Source: a virus. Taken from it: a stretch of 20,388 nucleotides of DNA. Made by a program: the position numbers and the translations under genes. Location: IMG/VR virus record IMGVR_UViG_3300025122_005324, positions 1 to 20,388 of that record. One strand, written 5' to 3'. Positions 3,099-20,219 of the stretch are shown here, in pieces. Position 1 is the stretch's first letter. Each line of letters opens with the position of its first letter. The notes beneath the pieces are model-generated. The model ran no database searches. It was not told where the DNA came from and saw only the letters and a program-made list of their open reading frames with translations.

Positions 3099-3878
3099 AT
3101 GTTAACTTCTGATGAAAAACTTAAGAAAATGATAATAGAAGAAGCAGTAAATATTCTAAAAGAGGCCGAAAAACCAGGCTGGCTGCAACACCGTTTAAAC
3201 GCCCTTAGAGCGCGCGATTGGCGCCGGGCAGGTGCAGGTAGCATGAGAGACGCTCAACGCGGCAGAGAGGGCTATGAGACGGCTCCTGGGGGGTCTTTAT
3301 CTGGCTATAATCCTAGGGCTGGCTTTGGTGGCGCCATGGCAGATGTTTTTAGCCCAAGAATGCGCGCTGCGCCACCAGAAGAAGTTATGCCGGAAGAAGG
3401 AGAAGTCGCACCAGAAGGAGAAGTTACACCAGAAGAAGGCGGCTCAAAAGAAATATGGTATACTCGCGAAGGAGATATAGAAAGCCTTGCTCCGGAGGAC
3501 CCAACAGCAGAAAGGCCACCGCCTTTGCCAATTGAAGCTTTAGCACAAAGAAAAGATATTATTGTATTGCCAAAATCTACTATGAAATTAAAGGAAATAT
3601 TAAAAGATTTAATTAATAATGCAATACACTATGCTGACTCTCAAGATCCTGAAATTAAAGATGCTTTAGACTGGGCACAGGGACAAGATGACTTGCGCAA
3701 GCGCCCGGGAGTGAACGCCCTGTGGCGATTTAAAGAATCAATTATCATGAGCGTACTAAGAGATTTAAGAAATTTGAATGTGGGACAATCTTTAAAAGAG
3801 AATATTAATGATTTTGTCTATATAAAAGAATCAAGGCTTAAACAAATGTTATATGATATACTAAAAGAGGAATTGTAA
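3099..3878 (+). CDS. Linker-rich protein with N-terminal phi-x-E tag (259 aa, unknown)
   Basis: The ATG follows TAGGAG by 7-8 nt, overlapping the end of the previous gene's stop region. The first 22 residues form a helix ending ILKE before Ala23, another putative prohead-protease site. Residues about 27-75 are Arg/Gly-rich with higher-GC codons than the flanks. Residues about 90-115 are Pro/Glu repeats (PEEGEVAPEGEV and variants). Residues 150-259 are a charged helical domain ending in the helix LKQMLYDILKEEL. No catalytic motif is visible and I recognise no family. The stop overlaps the next start (TAATG). The tag, disordered linkers and helical ends suit a scaffold, core or packaged structural protein, but that is a context guess. 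Confidence 0.6.
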   Translation: MLTSDEKLKKMIIEEAVNILKEAEKPGWLQHRLNALRARDWRRAGAGSMRDAQRGREGYETAPGGSLSGYNPRAGFGGAMADVFSPRMRAAPPEEVMPEEGEVAPEGEVTPEEGGSKEIWYTREGDIESLAPEDPTAERPPPLPIEALAQRKDIIVLPKSTMKLKEILKDLINNAIHYADSQDPEIKDALDWAQGQDDLRKRPGVNALWRFKESIIMSVLRDLRNLNVGQSLKENINDFVYIKESRLKQMLYDILKEEL

Positions 3879-6800
3879 TGGACTTTAATATTGTTAACAA
3901 TGCCGGCATTGATTTAACACAGTTAATTGAACTCGCACAAGAATTACTTTCATTCTCGCAAGAAAAAGTTGGTTGGAAACGTCCACCAACGCTCATGCTT
4001 AATTCAGACCCCGAAAATGCAGAAAATCCATTAGGAAAAACTGCACATTACAATCCAGAAACATTTGAAATTGCTATTCTTGTTGACAAAAGACATCCGA
4101 AAGATATTTTAAGATCTTTATCGCATGAATTGGTGCACCACTTTCAAAACGAGAGAGGAGATTTTGATAGAGATTTTGATACTAGTTTAGGATATGCTCA
4201 AAGAGATCCACATCTAAGAAACATGGAAGCAGAAGCATATGAAACTGGAAATTTATGTTTTAGAGATTTTGAAGATGAAAGAAAACAATTAAGCGAATCT
4301 ATTTATTACACAAAACCTATTTTAGGAGGAGAAGAAGATATGTCTAATGACACTAAAAAGCCATTGAAAGAATGGAAAGATGCAGAAATTAATTTCAGAC
4401 TGATGAAAAAGTTTGGTCTAGTTAAAGAAGATGTAGATGGTGGAGCAGAACAATTGTTCCACGATGAAACAACCGATGAAAAAACAAATTTAGACGAAGA
4501 CGAAGATGGTGGTGATGACGAAGATCCCGAGAGTATTAAGGATGCTCAGGAAGAGCATCCCTTTGGATATGATATCCGCAAAAAACACAAACCATCATTA
4601 AATGAAAACGTGATAGAAGAACAAATGACCGGGAAGGAAGGGCAGACAATCGAATTGCCCAAGAAGCGGAGCGATTATGAAAAACATATGGCACAACAAC
4701 AAGCTCAATTACGTCAAGCTCTTGAGACCCAATTGAAACGAGATATAAAGCATAAAAAAACTCACGAAACTATTCACAAAAGAAATACAACAGGAAAGCG
4801 AATTCCTCATCCGAATCGCATGCGAGACGAAGACTGGAGTGTGCGGCCGGGAGAACTTTATTCATATGAAATTCCAATTGATCCTACTGGGGCGCCCTCT
4901 ACCGGCGAGTGGGGAAAAGGAATGACGCCCGGGCAGTTAGCTAGCAAGGAATTCAAGGATTGGGAAAGCGATACGAGCGGTCTCGAAAGCGCTGGAAGAG
5001 GCTTTGCGCAAATGGATTGGCCAATTACTAGTGACGATCCGGTTCGTATGCCTCATTATTACGATAAGGAACAGGATGCGTGGTATCCATTGGGGCACGG
5101 ATGGATCAAAAAAGGTCCATGGGCTGGGAAACAATATCATCCACAACCCGAGGCTTTTGTTCGTGCCCCGAGTGGATTCGAGGTGGGCTACCCCGGGCAA
5201 ACTTTTTATGGCCCAAAGTCGCCTGCAAAACCACAAGAGTCAGCAGGAGAGGAATTGGCCTGGGCCGGCGCCGAAACTGCAGCATTTCTAGCCCCAATTC
5301 CAGTTCCTAAAGGGGTTTTCCGCCTATTTCCCAGATTCAAGCCTTTGCCTAAAGGACTTACGCCGCGGGGACAATTGCCCCCAGGCGCGCCACGCCCGTA
5401 CAGATTTACACATGCCGTACCAGAAAAAGGCGCTCCTGTGGCCCCAGAAACTCTTCGCATTCCTCTGACACATTCGGCGCCGGGGATGAGCCCCGAATTT
5501 GCGGCACAACCACAAGGAGCTTTTTCTTGGAAAAGAAAATATGAGCCCTTGCCAGAAGGTGTCCCGCCAGAAATGAAAGCTGCAGACGATGCATTGCAAG
5601 CAAGAAATATACCTAGGCCATCTGAAGACCAGATCTGGGAAAGAGCGCGCGCGGTGGCTGGCCGCAAGGTGCACCGGGCTGAACAAGTGGTCATTGCCGC
5701 AGAAGAAAAAAGACTTGGCCGGCCGGTGAATCAGTGGACGGAACAAGAGTTTCTAGATGTAAATTGGCCTGATCGTCACGCCATCGGGGACTGGACGTCG
5801 AAGGAGATGTATGCAGCGGCATATGTAGATCTAGTAGATGGCCACTTTGCACACCTTGCAGCCCTAGAGCGCGGCAAGGGCTTTAAACCTTCGTCTCGTT
5901 TAAATCTTTTGGACGTTGCAGTTGCCGAGAGAGCTGCCGCGGCAGTAAAAGCAAAAAAACCATCTCTATTTAAAAGAATATTCAAGAGAAAAGAGTTGCA
6001 AAATAAACAAGTCGACGATCTTACAGACGAACTCGCCGCAGAAATGAAACGCGATTCGCCACTTGATGCTCCTATTGAACACTTTAAACCAGCAGCAAGG
6101 GAACAAGCTTTAAAAAGTTTGGATATTAAAAAGGGCCCCACCGAAGTTGGCGGAGGCACTTACGCACCAGACGTCGTTCCAGAAGCTCCGGTTGGCAGAT
6201 TACCTCATGATCTTCGTGTACACGTAGAGGCACAAATGGAGCTTGTAAATCCAATAGATCCAGTTACACAATGGATAGCTGAAAAAACGATTGGCGATAC
6301 AGGAAAATTTATTGCCGGCAGAGGAAGGGCCGGCTTTCTTTATACGAAAGAATTTGGCCCGGGTCGCCAACGTTGGGGCTGGGCACAAAACACTCGAAGG
6401 CGGTTTTCTGAGTTCGCCGGCGGCCGTAAATTTGGTCCAGAGGGCGAAGTTATCAAGGGCAGCAAGAAAGGGAAATGGGCGAAATGGATCACTATTGGAG
6501 CCGGCATTATGTCCACAATTGAAATGGAAAGTTATTTGTCCGAGTTTATTGGGGATCCCACTGATAGGGAAAAGCTTGAAAATCGCCTAGCTTGGATATG
6601 GGATCCAGTAAAAGAACAGTGGTACGACCCGCACAGACCATTTGTTGAAGATAACAATGGAAAAATCGTAGCATATTATCTAGGAAGAAAAACAGTTCGT
6701 GGCGACCCCGAAAATATTTCAAATCCATTATTATCGGGCTATGACGGAAGGGCGTATGTATTTTCATCGCTGACGCCGCCTGCGCCGCCGCCTGAAGACT

Positions 6801-8257
6801 GTGATCCTAAAAAATGTTGGAAAGTTTTTGGCCCCCAGAATTCTAGAAGAATCGCAATGCCAAAATCGATGATGGATGACTTATTATATGGATATTTACA
6901 TGATTGGAATGCGCCGCCGGCTGATTATCCAGTTGGAGAAATTCAAAAAGAACGATATGATTTAATAAGAGCAAATAAAGATCTAAGAGGGCATTATGTT
7001 TTAACTCCATGGGCAAAAGGCGAGCGAGATATTAAAGTGCCGGGAGTAAAAGGTACGGAAGAAGCGGAACTAGAAATGGAATCATATGGTGGCCCATCAT
7101 CCAAACTTCCGATGATGTACGATAAAGAAGGAAATGAAATTATTGTAGCCGGAAGCGATTGTGTTGGCCCAGAAGATCCAGAAGCAGAAGGTCATGATAA
7201 AGAATGTTGGGCTAAAGTTCCATTATATAAGGGCTCGGGCCGATGGGATGTGCTATACAATGTTCCCGGGATTGGAAAAAGATCACTAGGAAGTGAGATA
7301 CAGTGGAAATGGCATCCATATTTTATAAGCAAATCAGTAATAAACGATGATTTTGGTGGCTGGAACTTGGATCCAGTTTTTACAAGCAAGGTTATGCAAG
7401 ATTTCGTTGGCGGGAAAAAAATACCATATTTTGATAAACCATTAGCATATACAGTTACGTCATTTGATGAAAATGGTAATTGGATATTCCATAAGCCATC
7501 TGACACTTTAAAAATTGAGACTCCCGAAGATTACACTAAAGCTCTCGGTAATGAAATATTATGGATGACTGGACAATATGATGACAAAAAATCAGCCGCG
7601 GAAAATGCAAATTCCGAAAACCATAAAAAAACCATGCAAAATACTCGGGAAGATTATGAAGCTTATCTAATAGAAGAAAGAAAAGAGTGGCTAAAAAGAG
7701 ATCCCGGATTGGCCAACGATCAGGAAGCATTAAATGAATTGCTCCCAACTTACGACGAATATCTTGGCCTGGTCATAAAAAATACAGTATCAGTAATCGT
7801 GACGCTTCCGGACGGCGACAAAGTATTGCGTCTCGATCCTAGAACTGGCTATCCAATAGATCCAGAAATGCAGGAAATTGATGTCACAAGGCCGGCCGGC
7901 GAAATGACGCGTCAAAAAACAGTAAGACCAATTCCTATGAGAACGATTGTGTATACACATAAAGACTCTGAAGTATTGATTCAAAAAAGAGTTCCCCAAT
8001 ACCGAGTGCAAGGGTACGGAGAAGATGATAGCAAAGCATGTTATAAAAAACATTCGGATCCAGGACTGCAGGCTAAAGGATATTATGAATTAACCGATGT
8101 TGAATGCTTGCATTCAAATGAATACATAATAGGAAGTCCTAGGTCTCGGGCCCCGGGGCAGGCAAGAACTCCCAGGAATTTAAAACCAGTGCCAAGTCCA
8201 AAAGAATTAAGAAAGCCTGCGCCAAAAAGAGATGATGTACCATATAGTTGGGAATAA
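3878..8257 (+). CDS. Giant protein with N-terminal HExxH metallopeptidase domain (1459 aa)
   Basis: Residues 1-135 form a small zinc-metallopeptidase-like domain. HELVHH (83-88) supplies two His ligands and the catalytic Glu; E117 or E119 in NMEAEAYE is a candidate third ligand. LSE before Ser at 138-141 could be a processing site. At codon 155 a strong internal ribosome binding site precedes a Met that begins a segment like a fresh protein N-terminus (PLKEWKD, then FGLVKE). After an acidic stretch (about 195-215), residues 290-740 are Pro/Gly/Ala-rich and encoded by distinctly higher-GC DNA. The rest is Trp/Tyr-rich with two C-x(n)-C-W motifs at 975-981 and 1095-1111. I recognise nothing beyond the peptidase. 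The gene starts on the previous stop (TAATG). Likely a virion polyprotein; the substrate is unknown. Confidence 0.65.
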   Translation: MDFNIVNNAGIDLTQLIELAQELLSFSQEKVGWKRPPTLMLNSDPENAENPLGKTAHYNPETFEIAILVDKRHPKDILRSLSHELVHHFQNERGDFDRDFDTSLGYAQRDPHLRNMEAEAYETGNLCFRDFEDERKQLSESIYYTKPILGGEEDMSNDTKKPLKEWKDAEINFRLMKKFGLVKEDVDGGAEQLFHDETTDEKTNLDEDEDGGDDEDPESIKDAQEEHPFGYDIRKKHKPSLNENVIEEQMTGKEGQTIELPKKRSDYEKHMAQQQAQLRQALETQLKRDIKHKKTHETIHKRNTTGKRIPHPNRMRDEDWSVRPGELYSYEIPIDPTGAPSTGEWGKGMTPGQLASKEFKDWESDTSGLESAGRGFAQMDWPITSDDPVRMPHYYDKEQDAWYPLGHGWIKKGPWAGKQYHPQPEAFVRAPSGFEVGYPGQTFYGPKSPAKPQESAGEELAWAGAETAAFLAPIPVPKGVFRLFPRFKPLPKGLTPRGQLPPGAPRPYRFTHAVPEKGAPVAPETLRIPLTHSAPGMSPEFAAQPQGAFSWKRKYEPLPEGVPPEMKAADDALQARNIPRPSEDQIWERARAVAGRKVHRAEQVVIAAEEKRLGRPVNQWTEQEFLDVNWPDRHAIGDWTSKEMYAAAYVDLVDGHFAHLAALERGKGFKPSSRLNLLDVAVAERAAAAVKAKKPSLFKRIFKRKELQNKQVDDLTDELAAEMKRDSPLDAPIEHFKPAAREQALKSLDIKKGPTEVGGGTYAPDVVPEAPVGRLPHDLRVHVEAQMELVNPIDPVTQWIAEKTIGDTGKFIAGRGRAGFLYTKEFGPGRQRWGWAQNTRRRFSEFAGGRKFGPEGEVIKGSKKGKWAKWITIGAGIMSTIEMESYLSEFIGDPTDREKLENRLAWIWDPVKEQWYDPHRPFVEDNNGKIVAYYLGRKTVRGDPENISNPLLSGYDGRAYVFSSLTPPAPPPEDCDPKKCWKVFGPQNSRRIAMPKSMMDDLLYGYLHDWNAPPADYPVGEIQKERYDLIRANKDLRGHYVLTPWAKGERDIKVPGVKGTEEAELEMESYGGPSSKLPMMYDKEGNEIIVAGSDCVGPEDPEAEGHDKECWAKVPLYKGSGRWDVLYNVPGIGKRSLGSEIQWKWHPYFISKSVINDDFGGWNLDPVFTSKVMQDFVGGKKIPYFDKPLAYTVTSFDENGNWIFHKPSDTLKIETPEDYTKALGNEILWMTGQYDDKKSAAENANSENHKKTMQNTREDYEAYLIEERKEWLKRDPGLANDQEALNELLPTYDEYLGLVIKNTVSVIVTLPDGDKVLRLDPRTGYPIDPEMQEIDVTRPAGEMTRQKTVRPIPMRTIVYTHKDSEVLIQKRVPQYRVQGYGEDDSKACYKKHSDPGLQAKGYYELTDVECLHSNEYIIGSPRSRAPGQARTPRNLKPVPSPKELRKPAPKRDDVPYSWE
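4324..4342 (+). promoter_or_regulatory. Strong internal ribosome binding site and in-frame ATG
   Basis: AGGAGGA at 4324-4330 lies 9 nt before an in-frame ATG at 4340, codon 155 of the 1459-residue gene. It sits exactly after the metallopeptidase domain. Translation from here would give a separate 1305-residue product starting MSNDTKKPLKEWKD. The domain boundary and spacing make it look like a former or still active second start. Confidence 0.55.
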
Positions 8258-8278: not shown

Positions 8279-8539
8279 ATGATGAATATAAATTTATTAG
8301 ACAAGATGACACGAAAATTTCTTTTAGGAGAAGAAAAAGAAGCTCCTACGATTCGTAATTGCGTTGAAAATGTAAATGAACTTTTAAATAAAATGAAGCC
8401 GCAATCTATGAGAGAAAGCAAACAAATCAATGCAGCTAAAGAGCATTTAAACGAAATTAAAAAATTAGCAAGAAGGCTTGAAGGTCAAGTACTTCAACTC
8501 GAAGAGCAAATTGAACTCTTAGAAGAGGGAAAAAAATAA
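8279..8539 (+). CDS. Small coiled-coil protein (86 aa)
   Basis: Two adjacent ATGs (8279 and 8282) could start it; a TAGGAAA element lies about 11-14 nt upstream. Residues 1-17 include KMTRKFLLGE followed by Glu, another short helix ending in a phi-x-E-like motif. Residues 25-86 are a long charged heptad-like helix (VENVNELLNKM, LEGQVLQLEEQIELLEEG), probably a dimeric coiled coil. Its stop overlaps the next start (TAATG), so it is coupled to the 1483-residue fusion and may be a partner, chaperone or scaffold for it. No family recognised. Confidence 0.6.
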   Translation: MMNINLLDKMTRKFLLGEEKEAPTIRNCVENVNELLNKMKPQSMRESKQINAAKEHLNEIKKLARRLEGQVLQLEEQIELLEEGKK

Positions 8540-11500
8540 TGGGTGGCGCCGCCGGACATATGGCACATCCTTTTGATTTGCCCGAAGTTAATACAGGTAA
8601 TGATTTAATTAATTTTTTTGAAGAAGCCGCAGAATATCTTGCGACAAATCCTGCCAGCGTAAAAATTGATGGGGTTAATGTAAGCTTTAAATTAATTGAT
8701 GGCCTTCACGGAAAAGAATTTGCTGTTGATCGCGGCAGTACAAAACCTATTGACATTGAAGGTATAACATTAAGCAGAGTTGGCGAAAGATTTCCAGAAG
8801 GCCATGGAATGCGCCCAGCAATTACAACTTTATTAAATATTTTTAATAGAGCCCTACCAAATATACAAGATGAATTACAAAGATTAGGAATGTGGGAGAA
8901 TCCTACAATATTTTTAAATACTGAATATGTTACAAAAGGCAAAACAAATGTTCAAGAGTATGATAAAAACTTTTTAGCTATTCATGGCGTTAATCAATTT
9001 TATGAAAAAACAAATGCAAGAACTGGTGCGCAAAGGCCTGGTGCAGAAAGGCCAATGGGAAATAAAGCGCCGAGTTCTGAAATATCTTACGATGATGAAG
9101 TATTCAATTCTTTAATTGAGAAAGTTAGACCAGTCGCTGCAGAATTTGATTTTGAAATATATGGCAGCGTTCCAACAACATCTGTTGCGAGTGCTGATTT
9201 TTCTTCTACTCTCGCGACTCCATTTCCTGTAAACTACGGATATGATGAAGAAGGGAAACTTTTTTCAGATACAAAACCATTAGGACAATGGTTAGATGAA
9301 ACTAACAATCCCAGAGGTGCATTTGTTGTTTTGGCAAATGGAAAGAAAGTAGGTGCTTTAAGTAAACTTATTTATACAGAAATTTTAAATGGAACACCTA
9401 TGACAGAATTGTTGGCTGTTGGAGAAGAATTTTGGGATAGCGTAAAGAAGGGTGCGCCATTGGAAGGAACAGATGTTGAAAAAGCCGTCGACGGAGCAGT
9501 TTTCTATCATACCACAAGAATGCTGGGGAACGATGTCTTAAAAACGCTAACTAGTGATATGGGCCCTGTTGAAAGCCACGAAGGAGCCGTTGTGAGAGGC
9601 ATTTCTTCCGTTCCAGTTAAAATAACTGGAGAATTTATACTTGGTGGACTTCAAACTGGCTTTCGAGAGCATAAAGAGTTAAATGAACAATTAGAAGAAA
9701 AGCGACATCTTGCATTAATTCCGGGAGGTTTTAAGCCGCCGCATAAAGGCCATTTAGAAATGGTTAAATTTTATTATAAAAATGTTGGCCGCGGCGGGAA
9801 AGTAATAGTTTTAATGGGAAGCGGCGGAAAATCACCGAGAACAATAAATGGGAGGCCAATAACTTTACAAGATTCAATGGATATTTGGGAAACTTATTTA
9901 AGAAACGACCCAGAAATCGAATGGCCATCAGATAGAATTGAATTTCAAAATGTAGAAGGCGCCGGCCCAATTGCTCCTATTATAGATTACGTAAGAGAAC
10001 AAGCAGATCCAGAAACAGAAGTAATCCATTTGGGCGCAGGCGAAAAAGATGCCGGAAGATGGAAGATGATGATGGATAGCCCAAAAAATAATCCGAGAGG
10101 TGTTGAAATACGTATTGCACCAGCACCAAATTTATTTGATGCACAAGGAAATCCTTTAAGCGCTTCAGCAATGCGTCAAGCTGTTGAAGAAAAAGATTTA
10201 GAAACTTTCAAAAATTATATTCCCGATACAAGCCTCCACATGGCTGAAGATATATATATTAAATTAAGAGGAGCTATGTTAATGGAAGGAAAGGAGGACA
10301 GCCCACTTCCGTTGGGTATATTTCTCGGGCTAATTGAAGAAACTTTAGATGAAAAAGAAAATTTATTAACAGAACGGCGGCCGCCGGACCTGGATTTGCC
10401 GCCGCTGCCACCAGATGATTGGAAAATAGAAGATAGAGAACTTTTCACTCCGCCGGCAATCAGAACAGACCCACCTGAACCAATTGATCCTTTAAGGGCT
10501 AAATTGCTTCAATCTTATACAAGCGGCCCAAATCGTGAAGCGTGGACTTGGGAGAAAGGCTATATATGGAGAGAAATAATACCGAATGAATCATGCCATC
10601 CGAATTGCACTCAAAAAGATGTTGAAAATATTTATAAAAACAAGATTTTTCCCGACATAGAAGAAGCTATATTAGAAACAGAGATAACTCATGGGATCCC
10701 AAAACGTCATCCATATAAAGACAGATACGGAATATGGCAACCTAAAAGACGTTATGAGTCCGGACCGATTGGGGATATATACCTAGCTAACGAAGAAGAT
10801 CTCAAAAAATGGGGGCACAGATCGTTGGCGCCAGAGGAAGAAAAAGAAGTAAAAAGACATGAACTTGGTGGGCATGCAGTTGATTTTTCGGCCGTAACGA
10901 GAGAGCTAAAGAACAAATCGGGATCTGTTGGGAAACCGTTGACAAAAGATATTTTATATCGATTGGCTCAAAGTGGGCGCGATCTTAAGAAAATGAAAGA
11001 AGCATTCCCATGGTTGTCAATAGGAGGAGGAGAAGATAGGTGGGAATTTCCCCAAGAATTGTATGTTGGTATAGTAACGGCGCGCCCGAATTTACCACGC
11101 TATCACCAAATAAAGGGCACGGGCAGCGATTGGAAATTTACAGCAAAAGATATCGCTGATATTCGCTCTGGTAACTTTACTTGGCCAGCTCAGGGAAAAG
11201 AATGGTCGCCCGGGCCAATACCCTATCGTGATCGACAAAGGCTGCAAAAAGCACTGCTGCACAACAAAGATCTTGGAATTGGCCCAAGCGATGAAGAGAT
11301 GGCAGATATTTTCAATCAAGTTTCACAAGTAGATCCAATTCAAGATCCAATTCAAGAACCAACAATGGTTGCAGAAAATACATTTTCATCAAATGAACTT
11401 TTACGATTAATTGAAGGTGTTATGGCACACGCTCGCAACGATGATCTTAAAATATGGAATGATGAAGCTTTAGAGGCCGCCAATAAAAATGAAGATGAAG

Positions 11501-12990
11501 AATTAGAAGAAGCGTCTTCAATGGCTGGTGGAAATGTCGCTGGTGCGTCCGGAGCGGCTGGAAACAAGCCTCCTGGTAGTCGCGATGATGAATATTTAAT
11601 TAGAGAAGAAGAGGAAGATCCGCCTGTAGAGCCCGTAAAGCCAGTTACTAGACGAGATCCTGAGCCCGAAGGTACGCATAAAGGCTCTGAGGATTATTGG
11701 CTAACAAAAAAGGGTCGTAGGCCCCTAGGAGATGTTTTTAAATCTCCGCCACCACCAAAACCTTCAGAAGATTTGATGCGGCGGTGGAAGGGCGACAAAG
11801 GTAAGAGTGATGAAGAGTGGTTAAAAAGTATGACCGGCGACGAGATGGATCAAATAATGGCTCACCGAGAGTATCACAGTGCAATTAAAAAAATGATAGA
11901 TCCATTCGGAGGGCCGCAAGCAGGGCGAAAAAGAGGTATCGAAACGACAAGCATGATGCCCGGTTATAAGCAATATTTAAAATTGTATAGCGACATAGAA
12001 CCACCAGAAAAGATTGATACTGAAAAAATAATTTCAAAACAAAAAGAAGATATGATAAATAAATGGACCAGCGGTAAAGATAAAGAAAGAATGATTAATT
12101 TTATTAAAAAAAAGCATATGATTGGCAGACCAGAACCGCTAGCTCCAGAATTGAGCATAACTAAAAGAACCGGCCGGGCATTTGTGAAATCTCAATCGGA
12201 AAAAGCACTAGAAGACCAAAGAGTAGAATATATATACCAAAAAGAATATTTGCCATTTATACTTGATGCAATAAAAAATGTTCCTATTGGGGTTGTTTCT
12301 GGCTATTCACAAGGAAAGGCTCACCGCGGCAAATATGGGCAAGAATTTGGATCACATTCCCATAAAATAGGGGGCGGTAAAGAACATCAAAAAATTAGTT
12401 TATACACAAAAGAAATACAGCAAAGAGCAAAAAAATCAGGTCGGAGTTATGAAGATCAACTTAGAAGGACCGTGAACCATGAAATTGAACATGCAATCGA
12501 TAAGCGGTATCAGCTTGAAAGAAGCCCACGAGCCGCAGAACGAGAGGCTCGCGAACCATGGCGATCTGCAGATCGCAGCGGCTGGCTATCAAGTGAACAA
12601 GCACAATTAATTAATACTGTGGCCGACCCGGGCATGGCGTATACCGAAAGTCCCCAAGAAGAAGGGGGAGGATTTATATACAATAGCTGGGTCGAATACG
12701 CGCAACGCCCAACTGAATTTCGCTCTTTTGTTAAAACAGATTTGCAAAAAGATACTCCATGGACGCCGGCAGAAGTAAAAAAAGCATGGGAAAAAGGCAA
12801 GTCTTCAAAAGGGAATAATATCTGGAAAGCTATGGATTGTAGTGATCCTGCCAAATGTGCACATGTTATTAATTCTATAGCAAAAGCAGAACCAGCACAA
12901 AAACCCACAAGAATGGTTGCAGAACAAAAAAATGATGAGCTTGTTGAAGAAGTTATGAACTATTTACTACATAAGAATGGAGCAAAATAA
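8539..12990 (+). CDS. Fusion of ligase-like adenylyltransferase, HxGH nucleotidyltransferase and two metallopeptidase-like domains (1483 aa)
   Basis: Domain 1 (about 30-375) has covalent nucleotidyltransferase motifs: K42-I-D-G (motif I), FLNTEYV with E129 (III), HEGAVVR at 347-353 (IV) and VKITGEF at 360-366 (V). These suit an ATP-dependent RNA/DNA ligase fold. Domain 2 (about 390-560) is a cytidylyl/adenylyltransferase: GGFKPPHKGH at 396-405 and the terminal SASAMR at 541-546. Domains 3 and 4 carry HELGGH (774-779) and HEIEH (1314-1318), with acidic residues downstream (E836/E840; E1386/E1393) as possible third zinc ligands. Each is followed by a similar tail (P-T-x-M-V-A-E). LIE before Gly960 and LEE before Ala992 are possible processing sites. 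Ligase-like plus HxGH fusions are, as I recall, known in marine T4-like phages and suggest RNA or NAD repair; peptidases added behind them are unusual. Substrates unknown. Confidence 0.7.
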   Translation: MGGAAGHMAHPFDLPEVNTGNDLINFFEEAAEYLATNPASVKIDGVNVSFKLIDGLHGKEFAVDRGSTKPIDIEGITLSRVGERFPEGHGMRPAITTLLNIFNRALPNIQDELQRLGMWENPTIFLNTEYVTKGKTNVQEYDKNFLAIHGVNQFYEKTNARTGAQRPGAERPMGNKAPSSEISYDDEVFNSLIEKVRPVAAEFDFEIYGSVPTTSVASADFSSTLATPFPVNYGYDEEGKLFSDTKPLGQWLDETNNPRGAFVVLANGKKVGALSKLIYTEILNGTPMTELLAVGEEFWDSVKKGAPLEGTDVEKAVDGAVFYHTTRMLGNDVLKTLTSDMGPVESHEGAVVRGISSVPVKITGEFILGGLQTGFREHKELNEQLEEKRHLALIPGGFKPPHKGHLEMVKFYYKNVGRGGKVIVLMGSGGKSPRTINGRPITLQDSMDIWETYLRNDPEIEWPSDRIEFQNVEGAGPIAPIIDYVREQADPETEVIHLGAGEKDAGRWKMMMDSPKNNPRGVEIRIAPAPNLFDAQGNPLSASAMRQAVEEKDLETFKNYIPDTSLHMAEDIYIKLRGAMLMEGKEDSPLPLGIFLGLIEETLDEKENLLTERRPPDLDLPPLPPDDWKIEDRELFTPPAIRTDPPEPIDPLRAKLLQSYTSGPNREAWTWEKGYIWREIIPNESCHPNCTQKDVENIYKNKIFPDIEEAILETEITHGIPKRHPYKDRYGIWQPKRRYESGPIGDIYLANEEDLKKWGHRSLAPEEEKEVKRHELGGHAVDFSAVTRELKNKSGSVGKPLTKDILYRLAQSGRDLKKMKEAFPWLSIGGGEDRWEFPQELYVGIVTARPNLPRYHQIKGTGSDWKFTAKDIADIRSGNFTWPAQGKEWSPGPIPYRDRQRLQKALLHNKDLGIGPSDEEMADIFNQVSQVDPIQDPIQEPTMVAENTFSSNELLRLIEGVMAHARNDDLKIWNDEALEAANKNEDEELEEASSMAGGNVAGASGAAGNKPPGSRDDEYLIREEEEDPPVEPVKPVTRRDPEPEGTHKGSEDYWLTKKGRRPLGDVFKSPPPPKPSEDLMRRWKGDKGKSDEEWLKSMTGDEMDQIMAHREYHSAIKKMIDPFGGPQAGRKRGIETTSMMPGYKQYLKLYSDIEPPEKIDTEKIISKQKEDMINKWTSGKDKERMINFIKKKHMIGRPEPLAPELSITKRTGRAFVKSQSEKALEDQRVEYIYQKEYLPFILDAIKNVPIGVVSGYSQGKAHRGKYGQEFGSHSHKIGGGKEHQKISLYTKEIQQRAKKSGRSYEDQLRRTVNHEIEHAIDKRYQLERSPRAAEREAREPWRSADRSGWLSSEQAQLINTVADPGMAYTESPQEEGGGFIYNSWVEYAQRPTEFRSFVKTDLQKDTPWTPAEVKKAWEKGKSSKGNNIWKAMDCSDPAKCAHVINSIAKAEPAQKPTRMVAEQKNDELVEEVMNYLLHKNGAK
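10267..10284 (+). promoter_or_regulatory. Possible internal ribosome binding site at a domain boundary
   Basis: AGAGGAG at 10267-10273 lies 8 nt before an in-frame ATG at 10282 (codon 582); another in-frame ATG at 10276 is too close to the element. The position is just after the nucleotidyltransferase domain. An independent C-terminal product with both metallopeptidase-like domains could start here. Purine-rich codons could mimic this by chance. Confidence 0.35.
11359..11424 (+). repeat. Tail repeat, copy 1 (P-T-M-V-A-E ... N-E-L ... V-M)
   Basis: Residues 941-962 of the 1483-residue protein (PTMVAENTFSSNELLRLIEG, then VM) follow the HELGGH domain. They match the end of the protein in order and spacing: PT, MVAE, an N/D-E-L turn, then a helix ending in VM. 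Several codons are identical, including the ATGGTTGCAGAA core. Confidence 0.6.
12904..12957 (+). repeat. Tail repeat, copy 2, at the C-terminus
   Basis: Residues 1456-1473 (PTRMVAEQKNDELVEEVM) follow the HEIEH domain and end the gene. They share the ATGGTTGCAGAA core with copy 1. Together with the two HExxH domains they suggest an internal duplication of a peptidase-plus-tail unit. Confidence 0.6.
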
Positions 12991-13929: not shown

Positions 13930-14301
13930 ATGAATTGGAAAAAAAGAAAATGGCACGGCAAAAACGAGCGATACAGCCTCTCAAAAAAATTGAAGAGAGA
14001 AGAAAAAACAACTGAAGAATTTGAAATCATGCTCAATCAATTGTCACTGGAAGAAGTGATTGGTTTGAAATTGGAGTTGGCTTCTAAAGTTTTTGGTGGA
14101 AAATCCTATGGTCTTCCAATCTGGCACTCAATGAAAGATATTGTAAATGATGCAGTACTAAAATATGCTTTATCAGCTTGTAGAACCAAAAGAGAAGCTG
14201 CAAGATTTTTAGGTTTAAAACCACAGAATTTGAATAACGTACTTAAAAAGTATAATGTTGAAAGTTTTTTCGAAAAAGAGCTTAAAAAGCTTGACAAGTG
14301 A
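13930..14301 (+). CDS. DNA-binding protein with C-terminal Fis-type helix-turn-helix (123 aa)
   Basis: ATG 13930 follows GGAGA by 9 nt. Residues 1-30 are very basic (KKRKWHGKNERYSLSKKLKR). Residues 30-70 are helical. Residues 78-110 read as a Fis/NtrC-type HTH: ALSACRTKREAARFLGLK, then NLNNVLKKYNV, matching the family pattern (A-L-x-x-C/G-N-R-T-x-A-A-x-x-L-G-I-x-x-x-T-L-x-x-x-L-K-K-Y). There is no sigma54 AAA+ domain, so it cannot be an NtrC-type activator by itself; a nucleoid-like or regulatory role is more likely. The tmRNA promoter's -35 element lies in its last codons, so it may autoregulate or control the downstream cluster; that is inference. HTH assignment fairly sure, targets unknown. 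Confidence 0.75.
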   Translation: MNWKKRKWHGKNERYSLSKKLKREEKTTEEFEIMLNQLSLEEVIGLKLELASKVFGGKSYGLPIWHSMKDIVNDAVLKYALSACRTKREAARFLGLKPQNLNNVLKKYNVESFFEKELKKLDK

Positions 14302-14345: not shown

Positions 14346-14725
14346 GGGGGCGAAATGGTTTCGACAAAGTAGAGAGATTGTTTTGTGCAAGACTGTGTAA
14401 GTATCACAGTAAAAATACTTAAACTTTATAAATGCCAACGATAACGTTGAATTTGATTACGCCTTAGCTGCATAATCGGAAGTTGTTAGTGACTTTCTTA
14501 AAGAACACTAATTGTTTTCAGTTTTAAAAAAAGCTGGTGGTACGCGCAAGCGGGATTTTAATTGTATAGGAAACTATATAAATTTGGTAGCCAACACCTT
14601 AAGTTGGTGAATGGATTCCCTGATTTAATCGGGTGGCTGGTACATCGGCGGTGATTGTGCCTATTCTTGTGAATGACAAGATATTTGAACTATTTTGGAC
14701 CCGAGTTCGATTCTCGGCGCCTCCA
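14346..14725 (+). ncRNA. ssrA: Transfer-messenger RNA (tmRNA), one-piece
   Basis: The 5' end GGGGGCG (14346-14352) pairs over 7 bp with CGCCTCC (14718-14724). The third pair is G-U, the alanyl-tRNA synthetase identity element. The T arm is CCGAG-TTCGATT-CTCGG (14701-14717) and the discriminator is A14725. The next bases are CTA rather than CCA, so CCA must be added after transcription. The tag frame runs 14434-14475 and encodes ANDNVEFDYALAA followed by TAA; with the charged alanine the tag is A-ANDNVEFDYALAA, ending in the usual ALAA degradation signal. tmRNA rescues stalled ribosomes with SmpB and marks the products for proteolysis. No smpB is seen here, so host SmpB would be used. Phage tmRNAs are known but uncommon. 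I did not resolve all pseudoknots. Confidence 0.95.
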
Positions 14726-14748
14726 CTATTTTTATACGGAGAAAATTT

Positions 14749-15909
14749 ATGAGTAATGAAGAATTTTTTGAAGAAGAGCTTGAAGAAGAATCTGTACAAG
14801 AAGAAGAGCCCGAACAAGAAGAGCCCGAACAAGAAGAGCAAGAAGAAGAATGGGACGTTCCAAATGATGAGCCTTTTGGTTTAAATGATTTTGATTTTGT
14901 AGAAGCATACGACGATGAACCAGCAGCTGATGATAGAATGCTGGAAGAAAATACTGCTAAAAGTGCTATAAATTGTGCCTTTCTCGGAATTGGCGGCGGT
15001 GGCGGAAAAATGGCCAAAGCCTTTTTGGACCTAGGGTTCAATAAGACTCTATTAATAAACACAACAGAGAAAGACCAACCAAATGGTGTTAATCCAGAGA
15101 ATTTTCTTTTGATTCCTGGAGCCGATGGTGTGGCAAAAGATATTAAATTAGGAAAAGAAGTACTAGGAAATAATAGCGCTCTCGTTGAAGACGCTCTTCG
15201 TACTCGAATTGGTAAAGTAGATTGGATTTTTGTTTTAGCTGGTGCCGGAGGAGGCACAGGCAGCGCAAGTCATGTTTTGCACAAATCAATGACTCGCTAT
15301 TTGTCTTCAATTGAAGCTGAAGGGAAAGTTGTTTATGTTGTCAGCAAACCTACGGCACAAGAATTGTTGAATCCAACTATTAAAGCAAATTGTGGAGTGA
15401 TGTTAAGAGACATAAAGAATCATCCTCACATTGTTATTGATAACGAAAAACAATTACAGCTTTTACGCGGAAAAGTGGGTATGCTTAATATGTACCCTGC
15501 CGCAAACACGAACTTTGCAAAACTTCTTGGCCAAGTGCTTAAGCTGGCTGACGAGCCTTCTCCAATTCAAGCTTTTGATTCAAAAGATCTTGAAAGATGT
15601 TTATCATCGAATGGTAGAATGCTTTTAGGAAGTACTGTTGTGAGAGATGCAACTAAACAAGATTTAGGAGCATCAATATTTCAAGGATGTTTAAAATCCT
15701 CGCCTTGCGCAGCACCTTCTAATCAGCCAAAAACAGGAGTTTTGCTTTTAATCATAACACCGGAAATGGGCGATAATCCCCAAATTAGTAATCGAATGGA
15801 AGCCGCCTTCTCTTATGTTGGTGGCCGAGCAGAAACTTTATTTTCTGGAGTGTATGTAAATGATAGATTGCCAGGTTTAATTGCTTTGACATTGCTTGGT
15901 GGAATGTAG
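14749..15909 (+). CDS. FtsZ/tubulin-family GTPase with acidic N-terminal tail (386 aa)
   Basis: ATG 14749 has CGGAGA 6-7 nt upstream; the frame extends 18 codons further left but only into the tmRNA. Residues 4-60 are an extremely acidic, low-complexity tail with EEPEQ repeats. The GTPase domain follows: T1-like GIGGGGGK (80-87), LINTTEKDQ at the position of FtsZ NTDAQAL, tubulin signature GAGGGTGS (165-172), and synergy loop AFDSKDLERCLSSNGRMLLG (275-294), which aligns with FtsZ NVDFADVRTVMSEMGMAMMG. D277 and D280 match the catalytic aspartates. The signature's last Gly is Ala and the T1 Asn is Lys. It lacks the usual C-terminal FtsZ tail and ends LLGGM. The loop is more FtsZ-like than PhuZ-like. 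It probably forms filaments that position phage DNA or alter host division; the role is inferred. Confidence 0.85.
   Translation: MSNEEFFEEELEEESVQEEEPEQEEPEQEEQEEEWDVPNDEPFGLNDFDFVEAYDDEPAADDRMLEENTAKSAINCAFLGIGGGGGKMAKAFLDLGFNKTLLINTTEKDQPNGVNPENFLLIPGADGVAKDIKLGKEVLGNNSALVEDALRTRIGKVDWIFVLAGAGGGTGSASHVLHKSMTRYLSSIEAEGKVVYVVSKPTAQELLNPTIKANCGVMLRDIKNHPHIVIDNEKQLQLLRGKVGMLNMYPAANTNFAKLLGQVLKLADEPSPIQAFDSKDLERCLSSNGRMLLGSTVVRDATKQDLGASIFQGCLKSSPCAAPSNQPKTGVLLLIITPEMGDNPQISNRMEAAFSYVGGRAETLFSGVYVNDRLPGLIALTLLGGM
14803..14838 (+). repeat. Tandem repeat encoding EEPEQ units
   Basis: Two exact 15-nt units (GAAGAGCCCGAACAA) and a partial third encode the Glu-rich N-terminal tail of the FtsZ-like protein. 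Length could vary by slippage between related phages. Confidence 0.8.
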
Positions 15910-16013: not shown

Positions 16014-16189
16014 TGAATCAAAGAGAAGCTTTAAGTGTATTAATCCAAGCAGCTAATATTGCTCAAAATAAAGGGGCTTTTAATTTACAAGAAGCTCAGA
16101 CTGTTGCGACTGCAGTATCAACTTTTATAACGCCACCTGAAACTTCCTTGGAAGAAGAAACAGACTCTACCGAGGAAGTAAATGACTGA
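16013..16189 (+). CDS. Small helical protein with acidic tail (58 aa)
   Basis: The ATG overlaps the previous stop and has GAGGAG about 8 nt upstream. Residues 1-40 look like two amphipathic helices (NQREALSVLIQAANIAQNKG, then NLQEAQTVATAVSTFI). Residues 41-58 are an acidic disordered tail ending EEVND. The end overlaps the next gene by 8 nt. As I recall, small proteins of this form are common in marine T4-like phages with no assigned role. I recognise no specific family. Confidence 0.6.
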   Translation: MNQREALSVLIQAANIAQNKGAFNLQEAQTVATAVSTFITPPETSLEEETDSTEEVND

Positions 16190-16481
16190 AGTAGTATCTA
16201 AAAAATCTTGGGATACAGTTGCAACTTTTTCCACATATGAAGAAGCAGATCTTCGACGAAAACAACTTTTAAATGTATATGATCAAGTAAAAGTTAAACG
16301 TGGCGTGTCTGATGGCGAAGTTTTTAGAGTGAAGGTGTGGAACGCACCAGTAATTAAAGAAAAATTACATAAACCTAAAAATAAATTTAAAAAGAAACAA
16401 AACGTAAAAAGGGCACAAAGAGATGATAACAAGAAGATACGCGCTAGACGAAAAGAGTCGCAAGATTTTTATCGGGAGTAA
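16182..16481 (+). CDS. Small protein with strongly basic C-terminal tail (99 aa)
   Basis: It starts inside the end of the previous gene, with GAGGA 6 nt upstream. Residues 1-55 look like a compact alpha/beta unit (WDTVATFSTYEEADLRRKQL, then VKVKRGVSDGEVFRVKVW). Residues 56-99 are dominated by Lys/Arg/Gln (NKFKKKQNVKRAQRDDNKKI) and probably disordered. That composition suggests nucleic-acid binding, but no motif proves it. It overlaps the following frame by 59 nt, the largest coding overlap in the operon. Confidence 0.6.
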   Translation: MTEVVSKKSWDTVATFSTYEEADLRRKQLLNVYDQVKVKRGVSDGEVFRVKVWNAPVIKEKLHKPKNKFKKKQNVKRAQRDDNKKIRARRKESQDFYRE

Positions 16482-16629
16482 AGTAAAATATAACAATCGT
16501 ATTTTTCTTGTCGAAGACATCCAGTATTTAGATTGGACTATCAAGCAATTTTTAACACTTTCGGACCACAAGAATAAAAATAAAAAACTAGAGTTTATTG
16601 CTCCTAGTGAAGTAAAGGCTATTCGTTGA
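16423..16629 (+). CDS. Small beta-rich protein (68 aa)
   Basis: The ATG lies 59 nt inside the preceding gene with only a weak purine stretch upstream, so the true start may be later (near 16470). The clear part is GSKVKYNNRIFLVEDIQYLD followed by QFLTLSDHKNKNKKLEFIAP, an SH3-like or KOW-like set of strands. The stop overlaps the TTG start of the GAPDH gene (TTGA). Function unknown. Confidence 0.5.
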   Translation: MITRRYALDEKSRKIFIGSKVKYNNRIFLVEDIQYLDWTIKQFLTLSDHKNKNKKLEFIAPSEVKAIR

Positions 16630-17678
16630 AAAAAAATATATTAGTTGTTGGCACTGGCACAATTGGGGAGCCCCTGATTGGTCTTTTAGCAGATCTTAGA
16701 AAAAAATTAAATATTGGACATGTGATTTTTCACAAGCGCACTCCTTTAATAGATGAAGTGGCAAAAGTCAACAGTTTAATAAAAAGAGGGGCCCGCCTGG
16801 CCGTAAATGAGGATTCAATTCCAGCTTTTAAAGAACTAGGGCACGATGTAAAATATGATTTTCAGGCAGCCTTGAAAGCGGCGCATGTTGTAATTGATTG
16901 CACTCCTGCAGGAAATGATCATAAAAAGAAACATTATGTAAAATACCCAGAGAAAGTTTTTATAGCACAAGGGAGTGAAAAAGACTTTGGTGTGCCATAT
17001 GCTTATGGTATTAATGACGAAGTGCTTGATAAAAAACCAGCCTTTATTCAAGTTGTTAGTTGCAATACTCACAATATCGCCTCTATTATAAATTCGATTG
17101 ATCCAAATGTTGATGGTATTGAGCGTGGAGATTTCGTTTGTATTCGGAGAGCCAACGATATAAGCCAGGAAGGAAATTTTATTGCCTCACCGCGTGTAGG
17201 ACCCCATTCAAATGAAAAATTTGGCACACACCACGCCAAAGACGCATACGATCTATTTCGTACAAAAAATAAATTTGTCAATATCTTTTCAAGTGCGTTA
17301 AAAGTTAATTCTCAATATATGCACGTTATTCGTTTTAATTTGGTAGTTTGCGGTCATGTATCAAAAGAAAATTTGATTAATAGATTTAGAGAGAATAAAT
17401 TTGTGGCTCTTTCTCATAAAACAATAGCAAATAAAGTGTTTTCTTTTGGGCGAGATCACGGGTACTATGGAAGAATTTTCAATCAAACAGTAGTGTCGAT
17501 ACCAACTTTAACAGTTGACAATCTTCCAGGTAAAACAAAAATAAGTGGATTTTGCTTCACTCCGCAAGATGGAAATTCACTTCTTAGTAGCGTAGCAGCT
17601 GCGCTGTACGGTCTTCATGAAGATTCTTATACTGACTATTTAAAAGCTTTTGATAAGTTTTTATTCCAAAATATATAA
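16626..17678 (+). CDS. Type II (archaeal-type) glyceraldehyde-3-phosphate dehydrogenase, 350 aa
   Basis: The start is TTG at 16626, fused to the previous stop; the product begins at once with the dinucleotide-binding strand KKNILVVGTGTIGE. The catalytic Cys lies in VVSCNTHN (C146), where archaeal GAPDH has VVSCNTTG near residue 140. The segment IRRANDISQ matches archaeal V-R-R-A-A-D-P. H233 in YMHVIRF fits the catalytic His of LMHMH. GRDHGYYGRIFN matches the conserved G-R-D-L-G-R-L region. The family oxidises glyceraldehyde 3-phosphate with phosphate and NAD(P)+. Length (350) suits the family (about 335-345). Encoded in a phage-like operon, it may be an auxiliary metabolic gene that steers carbon or NAD(P)H; substrate change is possible since the sequence is divergent. 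Confidence 0.8.
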   Translation: MKKNILVVGTGTIGEPLIGLLADLRKKLNIGHVIFHKRTPLIDEVAKVNSLIKRGARLAVNEDSIPAFKELGHDVKYDFQAALKAAHVVIDCTPAGNDHKKKHYVKYPEKVFIAQGSEKDFGVPYAYGINDEVLDKKPAFIQVVSCNTHNIASIINSIDPNVDGIERGDFVCIRRANDISQEGNFIASPRVGPHSNEKFGTHHAKDAYDLFRTKNKFVNIFSSALKVNSQYMHVIRFNLVVCGHVSKENLINRFRENKFVALSHKTIANKVFSFGRDHGYYGRIFNQTVVSIPTLTVDNLPGKTKISGFCFTPQDGNSLLSSVAAALYGLHEDSYTDYLKAFDKFLFQNI

Positions 17679-17680
17679 CA

Positions 17681-18028
17681 ATGAGACGAAGAACAAATAA
17701 AAAACAATCAATTGATTTTGTAAGCTATGTGTGTGAGCCTAGAGATATAATAATTGAAGCTAGCAGGCCAGTTGATTCTGCACATTTAAAGGTTGAATTA
17801 AAAGTTGCTGATAAAGTTGCTTTAGTTGGTAGATATAGAATTGGCTTTACTGATGATATGGATATTATCCACGAAAAAATAAAAGTATTTTGTAACGCAC
17901 TCAGTAAATTTACAGATAAAGACATACAATATCATGTTATTGCAGAACGAATAACTCTAGCACTAAATGCAAAAAAATCCCTAAAAGAAGTTAGAGCCAA
18001 AACTGGTAGATTAATTTGGCGTCGCTAA
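17681..18028 (+). CDS. Conserved-looking small protein, function unknown (115 aa)
   Basis: It starts 2 nt after the GAPDH gene, without an obvious ribosome binding site, so it is probably coupled. It looks like a compact alpha/beta domain: strands in the first half (DIIIEASRPVDSAHLKVELK, VALVGRYRIGF), then helices (IIHEKIKVFCNALSKFTDKD, ERITLALNAKKSLKEVRAKT), and a basic end (GRLIWRR). No catalytic motif recognised. It is the last plus-strand gene before a convergent gene, and the two stops overlap by 4 nt with no terminator between. Confidence 0.55.
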   Translation: MRRRTNKKQSIDFVSYVCEPRDIIIEASRPVDSAHLKVELKVADKVALVGRYRIGFTDDMDIIHEKIKVFCNALSKFTDKDIQYHVIAERITLALNAKKSLKEVRAKTGRLIWRR

Positions 18029-18798
18029 GAATTAAAAATATCTTTTAGGTTTAATATGCGCATCACTTCTTTGTATGCCATATATTTTTTCAAATTGTAT
18101 TTAATGAAATGTTTTAAATCTTCATATCTTGTCGACAAAGTCATCACATGAAAACGGGTAAAAACAGAATGAACCATTCCAACCAATTGTCCGCCCTCAT
18201 TAACTATCATAGATCCTGAACTACCAGGCGCCGCCGGAAGGGTGTAAAGTGCGACGTTTTCGTCTTCACCATTATATCTTCCTTCCAATATGGGCACTAT
18301 ATTAGGCTTGTATATTCCTACGGGCGCGGCAATATTGTAGACCTTGTCACCAGGCTTTGGAGCCCTTCTGGAAATTCTTACGGCTTCAACATTTTCTGTT
18401 AAATCTGCAATAAAAATAATACAAGCATCAATTTTCATATCATATTCTAAAACGCTGGCTTTATATTCTTCTCCATCCAGTCGATATGCAAGGTATTTAG
18501 ATGTAACATTTTCTGGCTTAACAGTTGGTGATTTTTCATTTTTGCAAACATGGGCGGCTGTTATGGCAAAAGACCCATCATCAATTGTTTTTACAACATA
18601 GCCAGAAGCTGAATGTTTTAAATCTACTGATGTACATAAATTATTTTCACATTTGTGCACTGTTAGGACTTTTCTTAAAAATACAAATGATTCACGTGGC
18701 GCAATGTCGCTAACAGTATGTTTGTTTGTGCCGCTACATGAAAAGAGGGGAAACATAAACGATAAGATGAGGAATAATTGTGTTATTTTTTTAAACAT
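18025..18798 (-). CDS. Lipoprotein trypsin-like serine protease (257 aa)
   Basis: I chose the ATG at 18798 because TAGGAGG lies about 10 nt upstream; the longer frame to 18876 would put unrelated residues before the signal peptide. The N-terminus is a lipoprotein signal (FKKITQLFLILSFMFPLFSC, lipobox L-F-S-C). The catalytic triad is readable: His in ITAAHVC, Asp in YDMKIDACIIF and Ser in APGSSGSMI, the order and spacing of the S1/V8-like trypsin fold. A membrane-tethered periplasmic or surface protease is expected. It is the only minus-strand gene in the window, with its own promoter, and looks like a moron-type insertion. A role in host-envelope change or superinfection exclusion is a guess. 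Confidence 0.8.
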   Translation of the reverse strand: MFKKITQLFLILSFMFPLFSCSGTNKHTVSDIAPRESFVFLRKVLTVHKCENNLCTSVDLKHSASGYVVKTIDDGSFAITAAHVCKNEKSPTVKPENVTSKYLAYRLDGEEYKASVLEYDMKIDACIIFIADLTENVEAVRISRRAPKPGDKVYNIAAPVGIYKPNIVPILEGRYNGEDENVALYTLPAAPGSSGSMIVNEGGQLVGMVHSVFTRFHVMTLSTRYEDLKHFIKYNLKKYMAYKEVMRILNLKDIFNS

Positions 18799-18847
18799 GC
18801 ACAGTGACCTCCTATTGTAACTATGACGAAAAAAAACAATCGTTCTT

Positions 18848-18876
18848 TTTATAAAAATAAAATAAAAAGAAGTCAC
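18848..18876 (-). promoter_or_regulatory. Sigma70-type promoter for the serine protease
   Basis: Read on the minus strand, GTGACT (18876-18871) is followed after exactly 17 nt by TATAAA (18853-18848). That leaves a leader of about 40 nt before the TAGGAGG and ATG of the protease gene. The spacing is ideal; the -35 matches the consensus in four of six bases. Confidence 0.5.
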
Positions 18877-18902: not shown

Positions 18903-20219
18903 ATGGCAAAGAAAACTTATATTTTAGATACTAGTGTTTATTTAACTGATGCAAATTCTATTGGATCTTTTGGGAATAATGACATAGTTATACCCTTTAA
19001 GGTTTTGGAAGAAGTAGATAATCACAAAAAACGCCAAGATAGTGTCGGAGCAAACGCCCGCAGAATTATACGTAAATTAGACTCCTTGAGAGAGAAAGGC
19101 AGCCTTCACAGAGGAGTACGCATAGAAAGAGGCAAGGGCCGGGTTTTTGTAAAAAATTGTGAATATTCCGCAGGAGATCTAGATTTGTCAATAGCCGATA
19201 ATGAAATTATTGGCGTTGCTTTAAGTGAAAGAGAGCTTAATCCAAAAAGAAGAGTTGTTGTTGTATCTCGCGATATTAATATGCGCGTGAAATGCGATGC
19301 TTTAGGCTTGCTAACTGAAGACTATGTTTTAAATCAAGTTGTTAAAGATGCCACTCGATTGTATACCGGCTTCAGAACACACTTGGTTGATGAAGAAATA
19401 ATTGATCAATTTTACAGTGGAGAGCAAATATATTTGGATAAAGAGGATATTTCCCCACGTCCAAATGAATTTTTGATGCTGGTATCTAATGCAAATGAAA
19501 AAAAGACAGCATTGGCCAGATTCTACAATCACTCAATACCTCTTAAAAGAATTAACGGCGAACACAAAAGAGGAGTGTGGGGAGTTCGCCCCCGCAACAA
19601 AGAACAGAATTTTGCTTTAAATTTATTATTAGATCCAAACGTGCCGATTGTTACATTGGTTGGCAAAGCTGGAAGCGGCAAAACTCTATTGGCATTAGCC
19701 GCCGGATTAGCCCAAGTGGTCGAAAGCAACGAAGAAACCAGATATAAACATCTGGTTGTCTCAAGACCTATTCAGCCAATGGGAAAAGATATTGGCTATT
19801 TACCTGGAACAATGGAAGAAAAAATGTCTCCCTGGTTGGCGCCAATACAAGATAATTTAAAATATTTGATGGGAAACGATAAAGAAACTTTGCAAATGTA
19901 TACTATGCAAGGTACAATAGAAGTTGAAGCTTTAACATATATAAGAGGCCGCTCCATTGCAAATGCATTCATAATTATTGATGAGGCACAAAATTTAACC
20001 GCCCATGAACTTAAAACAATTATTACGAGAGTTGGAGAGAATACAAAAATTGTTTTAACTGGCGACGTCGAGCAAATTGATAATGTATATGTTGATGAAA
20101 CATCGAATGGTTTAACATATGCAATAGAAAAATTTAAAAGCTATGATCTTACTGGTCACATGACTTTGATGAAAGGCGAACGAAGTAGCGTTGCAACCCT
20201 CGCAGCAAAAATTCTTTAA
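18903..20219 (+). CDS. PIN-PhoH fusion ATPase (PhoH2 type), 438 aa
   Basis: The N-terminal PIN domain (about 1-130) starts KKTYILDTSVYL with the first acidic residue D9 and continues with VIPFKVLEEVDNHKKR, typical of PhoH2/YlaK proteins. The PhoH P-loop domain (about 225-438) has Walker A GKAGSGKT (254-261), SRPIQPMGKDIGYLPGTMEE and Walker B IIIDEAQN (D360, E361). Length is normal for the family. PhoH2 proteins are described as RNA helicases joined to a PIN ribonuclease; PhoH genes are very common in marine phages, where their role is not settled. No clear ribosome binding site precedes the ATG, which lies 8 nt after a TATAAAT element; the message may have little or no leader. Confidence 0.9.
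   Translation: MAKKTYILDTSVYLTDANSIGSFGNNDIVIPFKVLEEVDNHKKRQDSVGANARRIIRKLDSLREKGSLHRGVRIERGKGRVFVKNCEYSAGDLDLSIADNEIIGVALSERELNPKRRVVVVSRDINMRVKCDALGLLTEDYVLNQVVKDATRLYTGFRTHLVDEEIIDQFYSGEQIYLDKEDISPRPNEFLMLVSNANEKKTALARFYNHSIPLKRINGEHKRGVWGVRPRNKEQNFALNLLLDPNVPIVTLVGKAGSGKTLLALAAGLAQVVESNEETRYKHLVVSRPIQPMGKDIGYLPGTMEEKMSPWLAPIQDNLKYLMGNDKETLQMYTMQGTIEVEALTYIRGRSIANAFIIIDEAQNLTAHELKTIITRVGENTKIVLTGDVEQIDNVYVDETSNGLTYAIEKFKSYDLTGHMTLMKGERSSVATLAAKIL

Follow-up and report, generated by a model that had tools for sequence, protein, structure and literature searches.

Carbon metabolism is a known target of phages: in cyanophages, the phage protein CP12 inhibits the glyceraldehyde-3-phosphate dehydrogenase (GAPDH) of the host (PMC5083919, PMC10452541). 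Among described enzymes, the closest to the protein reported here are the archaeal type II GAPDHs (TIGR01546/NF003251; PDB 1b7g, 1cf2, 2czc, 2yyy), followed by type I GAPDH and erythrose-4-phosphate dehydrogenase (E4PDH), which have the superfamily and a Cys-based chemistry in common with it. We know of no phage-encoded GAPDH: no report of one was found in the open-access literature (the coverage of which is incomplete), and no protein encoded in 50,697 annotated phage records matched the protein described below, consistent with the preliminary description of this DNA, which knew of no well described phage copy. When an archaeal homologue was used as the query against the annotated phages, only a weak match (24%) was returned, and the BFVD viral structures gave no convincing GAPDH match (best TM under 0.45).

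Here, we propose that a 20,388-bp IMG/VR virus record (the window) encodes what is probably a working phosphorylating GAPDH of a distinct type II-like clade, which T4-like phages would have obtained from a bacterial source in the distant past and retained as an accessory gene of the auxiliary metabolic kind.

The gene and its neighbourhood

The GAPDH-like ORF (16626..17678, + strand) encodes 350 aa from a TTG start that overlaps the stop of the preceding 68-aa ORF, and ends 2 bases before a 115-aa ORF. This start is supported by close relatives, which use TTG (L001, L003, L004, L010) or ATG (L007, L008) at the equivalent place. From the left end of the module, the gene order is a Fis-type HTH protein (13930..14301, +), a complete one-piece tmRNA with the tag ANDNVEFDYALAA (14346..14726, +), an FtsZ/tubulin-superfamily protein (14779..15909, +; start uncertain, with the ORF opening at TTG 14695), two small ORFs of 99 aa (c14; 16182..16481, +) and 68 aa (c26; 16423..16629, +), the GAPDH-like gene, the 115-aa ORF (c5; 17681..18028, +), a trypsin-like peptidase (Trypsin_2; 18025..18876) on the opposite, minus strand, and a PIN-PhoH (PhoH2-like) ATPase (18903..20219, +). 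The peptidase and the ATPase are conserved neighbours, and the 99-aa ORF is kept in phages with and without GAPDH. The GAPDH-like gene lies in a compact + strand run (16182-18028), behind which comes the minus-strand protease.

The FtsZ/tubulin-superfamily GTPase carries a GAGGGTGS box, adjoins the tmRNA, and has FtsZ, CetZ and TubZ as its best Foldseek matches (E about 1e-20). It has 82 viral relatives in IMG/VR (55-94% identity in the full-length ones kept) and none that we could find among annotated phages; GAPDH is present at a minority (10 of 76) of the loci with this gene, which is possibly the more unusual one of the module. The tmRNA is kept at the equivalent place in most of the GAPDH-bearing phages. 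A tmRNA is present in only about 2% of sequenced phages, and the one-piece type is seldom marine (PMC9004378). Further to the left, a 1483-aa ORF (8539-12990, +) has a nucleotidyltransferase-like stretch (GGFKPPHKGHLEMV ... LSASAMRQ) and otherwise looks like a virion-type protein, and a 1459-aa ORF (3878-8257, +) has a zinc-protease-like motif, LSHELVHHF, close to its N-terminus; neither was matched in Pfam searches. Finally, the related contig L006 matches the window at about 65% before approximately 16895 (L006 positions 1-160 against 16738-16895) and almost perfectly after it, a mosaic inside the GAPDH gene that reflects either a recombination break or an assembly chimera at a contig end.

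Fold and active-site residues

The GAPDH-like protein has no Pfam match. The NCBIfam type II GAPDH model NF003251 matches it with an E-value of 6e-24 (84.7 bits against a curated cut-off of 185), and TIGR01546, also type II, with 64.6 bits against a curated cut-off of 232.9. A profile built from 18 phage sequences and searched against the PDB returned the four archaeal type II GAPDHs first (E 7.5e-18 to 1.5e-13), as did an AlphaFold2 model of the window protein (mean pLDDT 85.4, with low confidence at 178-185 and 270-284) when run through Foldseek against PDB structures (TM about 0.8; E about 1e-18). Based on these three sets of E-values and on the 62 IMG/VR viral contigs that carry the GAPDH-like gene, the homology is far beyond chance. 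The window protein is a GAPDH-fold dehydrogenase, in agreement with the preliminary description. Aspartate-semialdehyde dehydrogenase, which that description had named as a family whose better match would count against its reading, is ruled out by the NCBIfam and Foldseek matches. Type I GAPDH and E4PDH are likewise ruled out by weaker model scores (30.7 bits against a cut-off of 367 for TIGR01534, and 24 against 539 for the E4PDH model) and by weaker matches overall (E 2e-7 and 1e-5; TM about 0.65).

The catalytic Cys146 and His233 and the nucleotide-binding glycines, all listed in the preliminary description, are seen in both the ORF and the alignments. C146 and H233 align with C139 and H219 of 1b7g (numbering counted from alignments), and the Rossmann glycines are kept as GTGTIG. 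Arginine and histidine residues bind the phosphates in GAPDH. The putative phosphate-site residues, the possible loss of which had been raised as grounds for doubt, are kept: R174/R175 align with R166/R167 of 1b7g and H202/H203 with H192/H193. Neither these nor the catalytic residues vary in the phage alignment or among canonical type II enzymes, and both sets are at least 98% conserved in the cellular members of the clade described below. In addition, K37 is common to the window protein and canonical type II enzymes and, with the adjacent R38, suggests a preference for NADP(H). As a side observation, some of the phage GAPDHs (L014 and L016) have a cysteine-rich insert (e.g. KCKDKGCMVNECEGRFC) near residues 105-110, before FIAQGSEK, which could be a metal binder.

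A clade outside the curated families

The preliminary description had considered the enzyme to be of the archaeal type (type II), which is mainly archaeal and sparse in bacteria. Our findings do not bear this out. A canonical archaeal type II GAPDH is ruled out by two defining tests, scores far under the curated cut-offs and a separate clade in the tree, and for this reason we do not file the window protein under the type II family. A two-motif scan of 84,980 species genomes (E <= 1e-3) found cellular relatives on at least 256 contigs, and the best 80 of these 256 are 49-55% identical to the window protein over nearly the full length. Among these 80 are members from Marinimicrobia, Acidobacteriota, Entotheonella, Bdellovibrionales, Krumholzibacteriota and other bacteria, and from Thermoplasmatota, making the clade widespread in bacteria. 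Every cellular copy tested falls short of the type II cut-off. In the tree, 98 rows of the clade are parted from 8 canonical type II rows by a very long branch (100*). The window protein's clade is therefore a separate one, without a name in the curated family models.

The clade is recognisable by its own signatures (SCNTHN, QYMH, FSFGR..G..GRI and CFTPQDGN), in which several canonical motifs have been exchanged (SCNTHN stands in place of SCNTT, and TPQD in place of HQES), and its C-terminal third diverges from canonical type II. The phage copies keep 82 of the 94 conserved columns of the clade and 31 of the 101 of canonical type II. In Marinimicrobia and Acidobacteriota, the homologues (L079, L100, L054 and their relatives) adjoin hydrolase genes of the metallo-beta-lactamase fold, which belong to two distinct families.

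Function of the clade in cellular genomes

What reaction might the clade catalyse? The cellular genomes speak for GAPDH activity. Across 60 Thermoplasmatota genomes, canonical type II GAPDH is present in 33 and the clade in 14, with none having both (counts that ignore relatedness). Type I GAPDH is absent from 12 of these 14, in which the clade member is the only GAPDH found, and in 7 of the 14 the clade gene directly follows pgk. Similarly, two Entotheonella chromosomes with pgk and the clade gene have no other GAPDH match that we could find. Because the clade replaces canonical type II in Thermoplasmatota and follows pgk in 7 of the genomes, GAPDH activity is the likely function of the clade, more so than any other that we considered.

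The strongest alternative, although an unlikely one, is that the same fold and chemistry serve another substrate, such as erythrose 4-phosphate or another small phosphorylated aldehyde, with the phage using the enzyme in cofactor, nucleotide or sugar-nucleotide synthesis. The position of the clade well outside the curated GAPDH families and the exchange of several canonical motifs are consistent with this, as are the sugar-nucleotide and glycosyltransferase genes in the phages. In addition, type I GAPDH coexists with the clade in most bacteria, being present in 17 of the 20 clade-bearing genomes first tested (1 or 2 copies, often as two adjacent genes), and in such bacteria the clade member may have a role other than GAPDH. 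Another substrate would, however, leave unexplained the adjacency to archaeal pgk and the mutual exclusion with canonical GAPDH, and the scores from the models of E4PDH and type I are far below the type II ones.

The phages that carry the gene

The gene resides in a group of uncultured phages which are T4-like, as judged from their gene content. Terminase is encoded on 8 of the 12 larger related contigs tested (107-190 kb), and the syntenic contigs of 131-190 kb carry a phage terminase. One of 186 kb (G022) encodes the T4-like portal gp20, capsid gp23, prohead protease, tail sheath and UvsX, along with RNR, IMPDH, GroEL, NeuB, sugar-nucleotide genes and a full-length DnaK. The G022 terminase shares 43% identity with that of Flavobacterium phage immuto and 42% with that of Microcystis phage Mel-JY01. 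The same contig (L208-L217) also has Clp-type proteases and parts of a Pol III alpha-type polymerase. Glycosyltransferase genes are found in these phages too. With the exception of a transaldolase in 1 of the 12 related contigs, no partner glycolytic gene was seen. Two approaches to naming the host were set aside: the tmRNA tags of the phages differ from those of the clade-bearing cellular genomes, bacteria among them, and the phage DnaK is 60-65% identical to that of all candidates, making it uninformative.

The main viral group forms one clade of 29 rows (support 100/100) that lies beside bacterial and not archaeal members of the tree. The phylogeny, of the kind called for in the preliminary description, groups the phage copies on the bacterial side. 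At the level of a donor phylum, the viral clade falls in a bacterial polytomy. Five divergent viral rows (L134, L135, L136, L137 and L139) are unplaced in the tree and may be separate acquisitions. The main viral clade is also found in other gene surroundings, from which we infer that the gene has moved between phage backgrounds.

Using the PhoH-like neighbour as an anchor, the GAPDH-like gene was scored as present in 20 and absent in 35 of 55 phage loci, with the 115-aa flanking ORF kept in 19 of the 35, which rules out this ORF as an obligate GAPDH partner. In locus L239, the FtsZ-like protein of which is 94% identical to that of the window, both ORFs that flank the gene (the 68-aa ORF on the left) are about 17 bases apart with no GAPDH between them, a precise empty site. 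The gene is accessory in these phages. Where present, it is under strong purifying selection, with dN/dS between the window and its relatives at 0.06-0.09 (approximate as dS is high, 1.3-2.2). The gene is phage-encoded, nested among bacterial homologues, accessory and intact, and is in these respects an auxiliary metabolic gene, as the preliminary description had suggested and as the IMG/VR record, the synteny, the terminase genes and the dN/dS of about 0.06 support. That description had also read the compact operon as a sign of selection rather than carriage; the compact run and the low dN/dS agree with this, with the qualification that the gene, although well preserved in the phages that have it, is missing from the equivalent site in many sister phages. 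That a decaying host gene was caught by chance, or that a contig from a host was wrongly classed as viral, is scarcely credible: the patchy presence (20/55 loci) and the L006 mosaic are the points in its favour, but the conserved phage synteny and the single old phage clade refute it for the phage group, and the 62 viral contigs, the dN/dS of about 0.06, and the fact that related contigs encode terminase and capsid proteins further oppose it.

Proposed role during infection

In light of the above, what might the enzyme do for the phage? Cys146 would attack the aldehyde of glyceraldehyde 3-phosphate with the assistance of His233, the Rossmann domain would present NAD(P)+ to accept the hydride, and phosphate, positioned by Arg174/175 and His202/203, would release 1,3-bisphosphoglycerate. 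The step would then be completed by host phosphoglycerate kinase, on which the phage enzyme would depend since PGK was not found in the 12 related phage contigs. During infection, triose phosphates would most likely be drawn through lower glycolysis to yield reducing power and ATP for replication, free of the control exerted on host GAPDH. Taken alone, the oxidative direction of the reaction has somewhat less than an even chance of being correct. The activity itself is deduced from homology along with the archaeal pgk linkage and GAPDH replacement, and the benefit to the phage is likewise presumed. Through this gene, the virus can probably steer the energy metabolism of the infected cell.

One other option, quite improbable, is that the protein is a GAPDH whose value to the phage lies in the reductive (gluconeogenic) direction, in NADP(H) balancing, or in a moonlighting (binding) role. 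Lys37-Arg38 and the lack of a PGK match in the related phage contigs are compatible with this, as is the fact that sequence does not reveal direction, but the catalytic residues are fully conserved and dN/dS is low, which favours catalysis rather than binding alone.

A broader and more tentative reading, which we think possible but doubtful, is that phosphorylating GAPDHs come in a third class beside types I and II, represented by this clade. Some archaea and bacteria would have it as their sole GAPDH and others as a second system beside type I, while T4-like phages would carry it as an NADP-linked GAPDH that does not depend on the host and takes charge of the triose-phosphate step during infection.

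Comparison with known systems

The clade has no name in curated models even though some archaea appear to have no other GAPDH. An active phage enzyme would define an overlooked GAPDH class and provide a concrete test of phage control over the glycolytic redox step. Sister phages that have or lack the gene offer natural controls. Like archaeal type II GAPDH, the window protein has the fold (TM about 0.8), the catalytic Cys and His, the Arg-Arg and His-His pairs, and the cofactor-site Lys, and in archaeal members of both clades the gene is found adjacent to pgk. Unlike archaeal type II GAPDH, the window clade is mainly bacterial and viral, has about 25% identity to that family, sits on a long separate branch, and differs in the motifs around the Cys and in the C-terminal third. 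Type I GAPDH and E4PDH are more distant, with weaker sequence and fold matches, and type I is a separate gene beside the clade in most bacteria. As with the cyanophage carbon-metabolism genes (cp12, talC), T4-like phages would here be altering host central carbon metabolism; unlike cyanophage CP12, which acts on the enzyme of the host, these phages bring a GAPDH-like enzyme of their own.
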